From positions 3,286,001 to 3,350,000 of the forward strand of contig NZ_CP155551.1 of NCBI RefSeq assembly GCF_039679125.1: a stretch of 64,000 nucleotides of DNA, given 5' to 3'. The stretch comes from Blastococcus sp. HT6-4. GTDB lineage: Bacteria; Actinomycetota; Actinomycetes; Mycobacteriales; Geodermatophilaceae. The position numbers and the translations under genes were made by a program. Positions within the stretch are counted from its first letter, which is position 1; each line of letters starts with the position of its first letter. Positions 38,528 to 48,429 of the stretch are shown piece after piece. A model generated the notes under the pieces. It was not told the origin of the DNA, searched no databases, and saw only the letters and a list, made by a program, of their open reading frames with translations.

Positions 38528-40114
38528 CTACGGCGCCGGACGGCGCAGGACGGCGTAGGTGAGCGCGTCGACCAGCGCGTGCCACGACGCCTCGACGATG
38601 TTGGCGTGCACCCCGACGGTGGTCCACTCCCCCACCCCGTCGGTCGTGTCGATGAGCACGCGCGTGGTGGCGCTCGTGCCGCCCTTCCAGCCGAGGATGC
38701 GCACCTTGTAGTCGGCGAGGGCGACGTCGGCCAGCTGCGGGTAGCGGCTCACCAGCGCCTGCCGCAGCGCGTTGTCCAGCGCGTTCACCGGGCCGTTGCC
38801 CTCGCCGGTGCTGATGATCCGCTCGCCGTCGACGTGCACCTTCACCGTCGCCTCGCTGATCACCACGCCGTTGCCCCAGTGCTCGACGGAGGTCTTGTAG
38901 CTCTCCAGCTCGAACAGGGGCGCCGGGGCCCCGGGCAGCTGCGACCGGAGCAGCAGCTCGAACGAGGCGTCGGCGGCCTCGAACGACCAGCCGTCGGCCT
39001 CGAGCACCTTCACCTGGTCGACCACCCGGCCGATGGCGTCGGCCTGGCCGGTGAGGTCCACGCCGAGCTCGCGGCCCTTGAGCTCGACCGACGCCCGGCC
39101 GGCCATCTCGGTGACCAGGATGCGCATGTCGTTGCCCACGACCGCCGGGTCGAGGTGGTTGTACAGCTCGGGGCTCACCTTGATCGCGCTGGCGTGCAGC
39201 CCGGCCTTGTGCGCGAACGCCGAGGCACCGACGAACGGCTGGTGCTCGTCGGGCGCGATGTTGGCCAGCTCGGCGATCGCGTGGCTGACCCGCTGCAGCT
39301 CCGGCAGGCACTCGGCCGGGACGGCGGGGATGCCCATCTTGGTGACGAGGTTCCCGATCAGCGCGAAAGTGTCGGCGTTCCCGGCCCGCTCCCCGTACCC
39401 GTTCGCCGTCCCCTGCACGTGGGTGACGCCGGCCTCGACCGCCGCGAGCGTGTTGGCCACGGCGCAGCCGGTGTCGTCCTGGCAGTGGATGCCGAGCATG
39501 CCCGTGGTGCGAGCCCGCACGTCGGCGACCACGCGGCCCACGCCCATCGGCAGCATGCCGCCGTTGGTGTCGCACAGGACACCGACCTCGGCGCCGGCGT
39601 CGAACGCCGCCTGCAGCACGCGCACCCCGTAGTCGGGGTCGGCGGCGTAGCCGTCGAAGAAGTGCTCGCAGTCGAGGAACACCCGCCGGCCGTGGGCGAC
39701 GAAGAAGGCGACGGTGTCGGCCACCATCGCCAGGTTCTCCTCCAGCGTCGTGCGCAGCGCCTCGCGCACGTGCCGGACGTCGGACTTCGCGACCAGGCAC
39801 ACGACCGGCGTCTGCGCGTCCAGCAGGGCGCGCACCTGGGCATCGTCCTCCACCGCCACGCCGGCCTTGCGGGTGGCGCCGAACGCCACCAGCTGGGCGT
39901 GCTTGAGCTGCAGCTCGGTGCGTGCCCGCGAGAAGAACTCGGTGTCCTTGGGCAGCGCTCCGGGCCACCCGCCCTCGATGAAGCCGACCCCGATCTCGTC
40001 CAGCAGCCGGGCGACGGCGAGCTTGTCGGCGACCGAGTAGCTGACGCCCTCCCGCTGGGCGCCGTCGCGCAACGTGGTGTCGAAGACGTGGAAGTCGGTC
40101 TCGGTGGTGGTCAC
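38528..40114 (-). CDS. cimA: Citramalate synthase
   Basis: This enzyme condenses pyruvate and acetyl-CoA to (R)-citramalate, giving a threonine-independent entry into isoleucine synthesis. The 528-aa DRE-TIM enzyme shows DTTLRDGAQREGVSYS (residues 13-28), GGWPGALPKDTEFF, the metal-binding H-x-H type region GIHCQDDTGCAVANT, and a C-terminal regulatory domain (about 400-528). The FDTTLRDG start and overall pattern fit CimA rather than LeuA. LeuCD and LeuB, encoded here, would carry out its next steps. It is preceded by an Ile-type attenuator. Confidence 0.92.
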   Translation of the reverse strand: MTTTETDFHVFDTTLRDGAQREGVSYSVADKLAVARLLDEIGVGFIEGGWPGALPKDTEFFSRARTELQLKHAQLVAFGATRKAGVAVEDDAQVRALLDAQTPVVCLVAKSDVRHVREALRTTLEENLAMVADTVAFFVAHGRRVFLDCEHFFDGYAADPDYGVRVLQAAFDAGAEVGVLCDTNGGMLPMGVGRVVADVRARTTGMLGIHCQDDTGCAVANTLAAVEAGVTHVQGTANGYGERAGNADTFALIGNLVTKMGIPAVPAECLPELQRVSHAIAELANIAPDEHQPFVGASAFAHKAGLHASAIKVSPELYNHLDPAVVGNDMRILVTEMAGRASVELKGRELGVDLTGQADAIGRVVDQVKVLEADGWSFEAADASFELLLRSQLPGAPAPLFELESYKTSVEHWGNGVVISEATVKVHVDGERIISTGEGNGPVNALDNALRQALVSRYPQLADVALADYKVRILGWKGGTSATTRVLIDTTDGVGEWTTVGVHANIVEASWHALVDALTYAVLRRPAP

Positions 40115-40149: not shown

Positions 40150-40205
40150 AAAAAGACCCCCCGGGTACGGGAGGTCTGCGCGCAGTCGGGGAGGTGACTG
40201 CGCGC
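40150..40205 (-). promoter_or_regulatory. cimA transcription attenuator
   Basis: The RNA forms a perfect 10-bp hairpin (40205-40196 with 40187-40178, loop ACCUCCCC) directly after the leader stop codon. A terminator follows (arms GACCUCCCG and CGGGGGGUC, 40176-40168 with 40163-40155, then five U). The loop of the first hairpin repeats the 5' arm of the terminator (ACCUCCC), so it can pair with the terminator 3' arm as an antiterminator. Ribosomes stalled on the Ile codons at 40211-40219 would open the first hairpin. Confidence 0.8.
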
Positions 40206-40237
40206 TAGGCGATGATGATCGTGCCGCTGCTGTGCAT
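40205..40237 (-). CDS. cimA leader peptide with three Ile codons
   Basis: The peptide is M-H-S-S-G-T-I-I-I-A-stop from the ATG at 40237. An in-frame GTG at 40255 would add M-L-S-W-S-A. Three successive ATC (Ile) codons lie at 40211-40219. The stop TAG ends at 40205, the first base of the attenuator hairpin. No ribosome site is visible, and a TTTCAT box 8 nt upstream with TTGCCG 19 nt before it suggests a leaderless transcript starting at or near the ATG. Confidence 0.7.
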   Translation of the reverse strand: MHSSGTIIIA

Positions 40238-40313
40238 CGCCGACCATGAAAGCACGGGAGGCGCGGTGCGCGGCAACCCCGGTCCCGGAAACCCGGCTCG
40301 GCCCCGCCCTGGC

Positions 40314-40354: not shown

Positions 40355-41377
40355 TCAGCCGCCGGCGAGCGCCGCGAGCCGGTCGCCGACGTCGGACGTG
40401 CGGATCGGCGCCCGCGGGTCGCGGGTGGACAGGTCGAAGGCGACGGCGGCGTCGACCTTCTTCGCCTGCTCGGTGCGGCCGAGGTGCTCCAGCAGCAGTG
40501 CGACGGACAGGACCGTGGCCGTCGGGTCGGCGACGCCCCGGCCGGCGATGTCGGGCGCGGAACCGTGCACCGGCTCGAACATGCTCGGGTTGGTGCCGGA
40601 CGCGTCCAGGTTCCCGCTGGCCGCCAGCCCGATGCCGCCGGTGACGGCGGCCGCGACGTCGGTGACGATGTCACCGAAGAGGTTGTCGGTGACGATGACG
40701 TCGTAGCGGCCCGGGTCGGTGATGAAGAACATCGAGGCGGCGTCGACGTGCTGGTAGGCGACGGTCACCTCGGGGAACTCGACCGACACCTCCTCCACCG
40801 TGCGCGACCACAGACCACCGGCGTGGGTGAGCACGTTGGTCTTGTGGATGAGGGTCAGGTGCTTGCGCGGGCGGGCGGCGGCCCGCTCGAACGCGTAGCG
40901 GGCCACGCGCTCCACCCCGAAGGCGGTGTTGAGGCTGACCTCGGTCGCGACCTCGTGCGGGGTGTCCTTGCGGAGCACGCCACCGTTGCCGACGTAGGGG
41001 CCCTCGGTGCCCTCGCGGACGCAGAGCATGTCGATCGGGCCCGGATCGGCCAGCGGGCTGCGCACCCCGTCGAACAGCTTCGCCGGCCGCAGGTTGACGT
41101 GGTGGTCGAGCTCGAACCGCAGGCGCAGCAGCAGGCCGCGCTCGAGGATCCCCGGCGGCACGCTCGGGTCGCCGATGGCGCCGAGCAGGATCGCGTCGTG
41201 CTGACGCAGCTCGTCGAGCACCGTGTCCGGGAGCAGCTCGCCGGTGCGCTGCCACCGCGCCGCCCCCAGGTCGTACGGGGTGGTCTCCAGGTCCGGCGCG
41301 ACCGCGTGGAGGACCTTGAGGCCCTCCGCCACGACCTCGGGACCGATGCCGTCTCCAGGGATCACTGCCAGGCGCAT
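40355..41377 (-). CDS. leuB: 3-isopropylmalate dehydrogenase
   Basis: This 340-aa NAD-dependent beta-decarboxylating dehydrogenase acts in leucine synthesis and, with citramalate products, in isoleucine synthesis. It has [11 protein letters not shown] at the N-terminus, substrate-binding [28 protein letters not shown] and [19 protein letters not shown] box lies 8 nt before the ATG, indicating its own leaderless transcript rather than simple read-through from serA. Confidence 0.97.
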
Positions 41378-48310: not shown

Positions 48311-48370
48311 AAAAAACCCCTCGTGCCACGGGCACGAAGGGTCAGCGCGTCGGTCGGTGACCGGACGCGC
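48311..48370 (-). promoter_or_regulatory. ilvBNC transcription attenuator
   Basis: After the leader stop, the RNA folds an 11-bp hairpin with one bulge (48370-48364 with 48351-48345, and 48362-48359 with 48355-48352). An 11-bp terminator follows (48341-48331 with 48327-48317, ACG-complement loop of 3 nt) with six U (48316-48311). The layout is the same as before cimA. Stalling on Val/Leu codons should disrupt the first hairpin and relieve termination. Confidence 0.82.
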
Positions 48371-48429
48371 TACGCGAGTACGAGGACGCCGCGGGTGCGG
48401 GCGTCGGCGAGCATGCTGGTGCGAGGCAC
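48370..48429 (-). CDS. ilvB leader peptide (Val-Leu-Val-Leu)
   Basis: The peptide reads MPRTSMLADARTRGVLVLA then TAG, from the GTG at 48429, or 14 aa from the ATG at 48414. Codons GTC-CTC-GTA-CTC lie at 48387-48376. There is no Ile codon. The GTG lies 6 nt after the -10 CACAGT, so the leader mRNA is probably leaderless, as known for some actinobacterial ilvB leaders. Confidence 0.75.
   Translation of the reverse strand: MPRTSMLADARTRGVLVLA

Follow-up and report, generated by a model that had tools for sequence, protein, structure and literature searches.

Whether cimA of Blastococcus sp. HT6-4 is controlled by isoleucine is the question raised by a short reading frame and two hairpins that precede this gene on the minus strand. 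The window, which is the whole stretch of 64,000 nucleotides analysed here, contains cimA next to leuB, with ilvC and ilvB located farther upstream than leuB. By profile, cimA codes for a citramalate synthase, as had been claimed in a sequence-only reading of the region, in which the gene was regarded as the threonine-independent entry to Ile. However, a threonine ammonia-lyase match above the cut-off was also identified in the genome (422.6 bits, cut-off 378.75), so that cimA is probably not the sole Ile entry, with 2-oxobutyrate likely being reached by two routes, one of them through cimA. The element in front of cimA is probably an Ile-responsive, ribosome-mediated transcription attenuator of this gene, an assignment which is supported on the sequence level by its parts, its conservation, the pairing of its first hairpin and the match between sensor codons and downstream gene.

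The first base of the leader element is located 123 nt from the cimA start. The leader frame was read as ATG CAC AGC AGC GGC ACG ATC ATC ATC GCC TAG, in agreement with the previous claim of a leader peptide with three consecutive Ile codons followed by Ala and stop. The perfect 10-bp hairpin and the following U-run terminator noted on the same occasion are both present: the first hairpin, P1, consists of GCGCGCAGTC-ACCTCCCC-GACTGCGCGC (40205-40178), and the predicted terminator, T, of AGACCTCCCG-TACC-CGGGGGGTCT (40177-40154), followed by five T residues (40154 to 40150). T was also called, with 10 pairs, by a terminator scan. The fold of the region is more stable than that of 200 out of 200 dinucleotide shuffles (z -5.16). 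The coordinates are compiled in Table 1.

Table 1. Features of the leader element, its neighbouring genes and the sister element in the window
Feature	Positions	Strand	Basis	Remarks
-10-like hexamer TTTCAT	40246..40251	-	sequence	8 nt upstream of leader-frame start
Leader frame MHSSGTIIIA-stop	40205..40237	-	sequence	10 codons; ATG at 40237, stop codon 40207-40205
Sensor codons ATC ATC ATC (Ile)	40211..40219	-	sequence	first base of first codon 14 nt upstream of P1
Hairpin P1	40178..40205	-		10 perfect pairs, 8-nt loop; first base is final base of stop codon
Intrinsic terminator T (predicted)	40150..40177	-		10 pairs (one G-U), 4-nt loop, five U; spacer to P1 0
cimA, citramalate synthase	38531..40114 (without stop codon)	-	TIGR00977 equivalog, 615.6 bits, cut-off 450	
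leuB, upstream neighbour	40355..41377	-	NF002898 equivalog, 578.5 bits, cut-off 393	end 118 nt from leader-frame start
Sister element before ilvB	48311..48429	-	R1 match, E 6.3e-8	frame VPRTSMLADARTRGVLVLA-stop; P1 from stop codon; abutting terminator

A -10-like hexamer was found to end 6-8 nt before a start codon in 29 of 38 representative leaders, with 4.9 being expected from shuffles; the pattern was defined after inspection of the sequences and includes the TTTCAT of this very site. A sigma-70 promoter scan gave no match, and by eye no Shine-Dalgarno sequence was found ahead of the leader frame in this window. The arrangement suggests that the transcript begins at or adjoining the leader start codon, i.e., that the frame is leaderless. 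Several leaders of S. lividans have been reported to be leaderless (PMC8079986).

For the conservation of the element, cimA upstream regions were taken from the 80 nearest relatives and the 30 best loci of the family, a sample which is biased to close cimA. It contains 103 distinct regions of at least 200 nt, with three others (L034, L039, L051) being too short. In 91 of the 103, the element was identified by a leader-finding script, which had been loosened for weak U-runs and thereby recovered six of seven family leaders missed by a stricter version; a covariance model added three more (L029, L071, L113; E 5e-20 to 5e-17), resulting in 94 of 103. Nine regions (L007, L054, L056, L057, L078-L081, L095) are devoid of the element, the best E value of the model there being 0.34. 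At least two Ile codons are present among the five codons preceding P1 in 90 of the 91 leaders. Thus, conservation of the Ile codons and hairpins upstream of cimA in relatives, for which the sequence-only reading had proposed to look, was found. The spacing is also conserved: the distance from the first Ile codon to P1 is 14 nt in 61 leaders, 11 nt in 21, 13 nt in seven, and 16 and 29 nt in one each, the stop codon starts 2 nt before P1 in 67 of the 91, and the spacer between P1 and T is 0 nt in 80, 1 nt in ten and 2 nt in one.

The covariance model, designated R1, was built from an alignment, A1, of 31 of the 38 representatives (L049, L069, L098, L101, L102, L108 and L110 are omitted). Searching the own genome with R1 resulted in two matches at E <= 0.01, namely the cimA site (1.2e-20) and the ilvB leader listed in Table 1, and in three further matches at E 0.77 to 9.5. 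In the family, cimA was identified in 102 of 112 genomes, and an R1 match is located 38-460 nt upstream for 98 of the 103 cimA matches, a placement which used 98 of the 150 R1 matches listed. Among the five cimA matches lacking R1, the one in G060 stops 36 nt short of the contig end; in the other four (G065, G070, G072, G074) upstream sequence is present and cimA lies close behind an apparent leuB. In these four genomes lacking the element (loci L229-L232), cimA may share the leuB transcript.

In a sample of 295 genomes from the class, R1 was found in 205 of the 235 genomes with cimA, a genome-level count that may include an ilvB-type match in some genomes, versus five of the 60 without cimA; 20 of the 30 cimA genomes without R1 come from a single family with small genomes. 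Among the 150 R1 matches listed for the class, 98 could be placed, and every one of those is located 28-233 nt before cimA. For this placement the 150 listed R1 matches were set against 150 listed cimA matches plus the own one, which left 52 R1 matches unplaceable and 53 listed cimA genomes without a listed R1 match nearby. In the phylum sample, R1 matches were obtained in 68 of 246 genomes, the own class being included, and these conservation counts as a whole ignore kinship among genomes. Weak R1 matches include false ones, like L179 and L187, which represent a tRNA gene plus terminator and were excluded from the codon count described below; another such match, L218, with FVAIA codons, lies ahead of an isocitrate-lyase-like gene.

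The pairing of the two hairpins was analysed in A1. Here, 94.2% of the cells are paired, and changes on both sides were identified for 11 of the 21 pairs. The covariation score of 0.322 compares to 0.161 after shuffling, is reached by none of 500 shuffles, and amounts to at most 0.115 when slid; one of five covariation measures, further pair types, is not outstanding, being reached by 78 of 500 shuffles. Compensatory changes are present in seven of ten pairs of P1 and in four of 11 pairs of T (31 sequences). RNAalifold, unaided, recovers P1 and the core of T. A U-G wobble within the terminator stem (A1 columns 65 and 82) is kept in 20 of the 31 sequences, with U-A and C-G occurring in five each.

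Beyond the cimA leaders of the family, sensor codons were read in weaker R1 matches from ten genomes of the class, picked for multiple R1 matches, and in 19 loci from the phylum search. The sensor codons match the downstream gene. In the five codons preceding P1, 103 Ile, 20 Leu and 8 Val codons were counted before cimA (n=42), 11 Ile, 27 Leu and 29 Val before ilvB (n=19), and 26 Leu, 3 Ile and no Val before leuA or leuS (n=9); three of these windows are one codon off, and one (L177) is out of frame. The gene names in this count were mostly obtained from translated gene starts, with eight of the 19 ilvB windows lying directly before a listed TIGR00118 match, and seven of 39 windows fall outside the three counts (four before an unknown gene, one ACT-like, one leuB-like, and L218). 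In the same register near P1, Leu/Val/Ile codons are found before ilvB (e.g., VLVLA-stop in the own genome) and Leu codons before leuA (NLLLT, GLLLR) and leuS (TLLLT); three cimA-like genes of other classes are preceded by Ile codons (IIIIR, IIIIA, IIIIR). Since the codons switch with the downstream gene, the AUC run is unlikely to act purely on the nucleotide level, and a response to charging of the cognate tRNA is indirectly supported. The claim of an Ile-codon attenuator of cimA, made on the window alone, is thus strengthened by conservation within and beyond the family and by the match of codons and gene.

In this genome, the leaders of cimA and ilvB appear to respond to different amino acids. 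The sensor codons of the own ilvB leader are of the Val/Leu type (VLVLA-stop), and CACAGT is found as a -10-like hexamer ahead of its GTG start. Eight ilvB upstream regions were taken, of which six, belonging to a single family within the same order, were folded, L223 and L228 being left out for lack of the search word; all six contain LVV-type codons, P1 and an abutting T. GTA, CTT and ATT are rare codons in high-GC actinobacteria. These codons often occupy the sensor positions of ilvB-type leaders, and stalling might be more sensitive if they are rare. Several leaders precede other genes. In L205, L209, L210 and L220, from other classes, a leader of the LVLIT- or VLLIT-type lies before an unnamed gene, the product of which starts like MKFEIYNGEHVGTAEWQGPG in L209, L210 and L220. 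In L152, the leader MFALVIIM-stop and both hairpins are present ahead of a gene for an apparent ACT-domain protein, and in L208, a VIIIE-stop leader precedes a gene for a leuB-like dehydrogenase and not cimA.

In the proposed mechanism, transcription would begin at the leader start codon or right beside it, and the ten leader codons would be translated by a ribosome. When Ile is ample, the ribosome at the stop codon would cover the 5' arm of P1, P1 would not be formed, and formation of T would terminate transcription before cimA. When charged tRNA-Ile is scarce, the ribosome would stall as early as the first of the Ile codons, at a distance of 14 nt from P1, so that P1 remains free to form; the formed P1, abutting the base of T, would hinder T, and RNA polymerase would continue into cimA. 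The size of the ribosome footprint is well established. By geometry, the 5' arm of P1 (10 nt, located 2 to 11 nt ahead) is covered when the stop codon occupies the A site of the ribosome, and for a ribosome stalled at the first Ile codon P1 lies at or just beyond its edge (14 nt ahead). Because of this position of P1 relative to the footprint, P1 is expected to form during starvation, but not with the ribosome at the stop codon. Speaking against such gating, a 26-nt footprint, as used in PMC13236596, would cover most of the P1 5' arm when the ribosome is at the third Ile codon.

P1 itself is inferred to be the antagonist of T, since the ribosome position should alter P1 and since P1 abuts T. 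In nested folding, T has a mean probability of 0.84-0.85 both without a ribosome and at three ribosome positions, and no pairing of a T arm with upstream RNA reaches a mean probability of 0.18 in these four ribosome states, nested structures only being considered and pseudoknots thus being invisible. Because T is predicted in every ribosome state tested, no base-pair switch would account for read-through. The feature conserved instead is contact, with the end of P1 adjoining the start of T, and this was also found for the six ilvB leaders with a stalled ribosome. The preferred guess, which might equally turn out right or wrong, is that P1 antagonises T by steric hindrance of its basal pairs at the polymerase exit. 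Against contact speaks a P1-T spacing of up to about 4 nt in other classes, and in L225, which belongs to the six folded ilvB leaders, the P1-loop region folds onto the 3' arm of T in the stop-codon state, contrary to the proposed model.

Two other explanations leave the attenuator untouched and dispute only the P1 step. By the first, P1 would aid termination or only pace RNA polymerase as a pause hairpin, with regulation coming from elsewhere, e.g., from transcription-translation coupling or Rho. Pausing is the classical role of the first hairpin in trp attenuation, and without a ribosome both P1 and T are predicted to be present at once, but the near-fixed positions of stop and sensor codons relative to P1 fit a gated P1, and a free-standing pause hairpin need not adjoin T; this explanation is regarded as rather unlikely.

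By the second, the P1 loop (ACCUCCCC) would act as antiterminator by pairing with the 3' arm of T, a proposal made in the sequence-only reading, where the loop was described as a copy of the T 5' arm. Seven contiguous bases of the loop are indeed complementary to the T 3' arm in this window, but this is unremarkable for a loop of that composition, since shuffled loops average 5.7 contiguous bases (p = 0.27). Over the 38 representatives, the median p versus shuffled loops is 0.54, with p <= 0.1 in four of 38; as composition is fixed in this test, it is blind to selection on composition, and the pooled C+U content of P1 loops is somewhat pyrimidine-rich (0.59). Loops permuted among loci equal the real ones in 73 of 300 permutations, and compared to reversed loops 17 are better, 18 worse and three tied. 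In addition, the loop duplex falls short of T in strength in 37 of 38 representatives, and the loop is variable, being 6 nt or shorter in six of 38. A published precedent exists in the Corynebacterium ilvB-II leader (PMC10272879), and L225 folds in this way in the stop-codon state. The idea was thus a reasonable one and retains some probability for this one species, but pairing that is no better than in shuffled, reversed or swapped loops makes a loop antiterminator improbable.

The remaining explanations dispute attenuation as such. In translational control, the leader would gate the cimA ribosome-binding site, as was proposed for other actinobacterial leaders, namely the LEU element, which relies on pairing between Leu codons and the Shine-Dalgarno box of leuA (PMC1262725); T, however, has a U-run and excludes the cimA start, a GTG at 40114 located 36 nt beyond this U-run, which renders such a control very improbable. 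Ordinary intergenic terminators combined with a chance reading frame would be conceivable from the frequency of hairpins in high-GC intergenic DNA and a possible need for a terminator of the upstream leuB, but are scarcely credible, being already contradicted by class-wide conservation beside cimA, P1 covariation and codons tracking the downstream gene.

Sensing by leader codons, on which the Ile-responsive attenuator relies, has been analysed for ilvB leaders. For M. tuberculosis ilvB1, which has an LVVI leader, an abundant transcript of ~120 nt ending in the leader was described, an IlvB1 inhibitor was shown to induce the gene, and the exchange of LVVI to AAAA abolished the induction; the authors propose an antiterminator which is masked by the ribosome at the stop codon (PMC13236596). 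Against codon sensing, a codon substitution in the S. coelicolor ilvB leader, cited in PMC1262725, was without effect.

If the attenuator is confirmed, the threonine-independent entry to Ile would be under direct control of tRNA-Ile charging in many actinobacteria containing cimA, with a division of labour in branched-chain synthesis, since in this genome the leader before ilvB reads Val and Leu codons. The leader codons also point, indirectly, to a function of the TIGR00977 enzyme in the synthesis of isoleucine and not of leucine. More tentatively, an attenuator class extending over the Actinomycetota could be envisaged, comprising cimA, ilvB, leuA and leuS, in which a separate hairpin gated by the ribosome blocks the terminator by contact without alternative pairing, and in which the sensor codons form an interchangeable cassette. 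The apparent absence of an overlapping antiterminator makes the read-through of such leaders directly testable.

Among the known systems, a T-box leader has been described before ileS in Actinobacteria. A T-box was rejected for cimA: Rfam at gathering scores gave three tRNAs only in the window, and a lax search of the region gave nothing related. At the gathering score, families of Rfam release 15 matched neither the element nor 12 related loci. The LEU element of leuA, to which a pseudoknot also belongs, was rejected as well, the codons here being Ile and a terminator being present. In E. coli trp attenuation, the position of the ribosome, stalled or at the stop codon, decides which hairpin is formed, and antiterminator and terminator share a strand. 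The logic of stall versus stop would be the same for cimA, whereas here P1 and T share no strand.

Leaders of ilvB, leuA and leuS were described by Seliverstov 2005 (PMC1262725), and ilvB is covered by Narunsky 2023 (PMC10272879). In S. lividans, the leaderless frames ilvL, leuL1, leuL2, trpL1 and others, several of them followed by hairpins and a U-rich stretch, were mapped by RNA-seq and resemble the cimA leader; the eight leaders in Table 4 of that paper include none for cimA (PMC8079986). The cimA element is placed among the ribosome-mediated attenuators, and cimA was not found as a target in the literature searched, most subscription papers lying outside its scope. The suggestion that an Ile attenuator on cimA may be undescribed "in this group" is in line with this search, but was too narrow in scope, the element being class-wide with related ones in other classes.

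The closest likeness is to ilvB leaders. Corynebacterium ilvB-II also comprises P1, a terminator P2 and a leader frame, and a fusion gave high values in minimal medium and low ones in rich medium; its frame, however, extends over the greater part of P1, the loop of which was proposed to pair with P2 (PMC10272879). An assignment of the cimA element to the ilvB-II motif was rejected, since before cimA the frame ends at P1 and loop pairing is not conserved. With the ilvB attenuators of Corynebacterium, Mycobacterium and Streptomyces in general, the cimA element shares a short frame of branched-chain codons followed by a terminator; R1, which was derived from cimA leaders, also matches ilvB leaders, and the ilvB leader of the own genome is built in the same way. 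In contrast to these, the target here is cimA, the codons are mainly Ile, and in 67 of 91 leaders the stop codon provides, with its final base, the start of P1.
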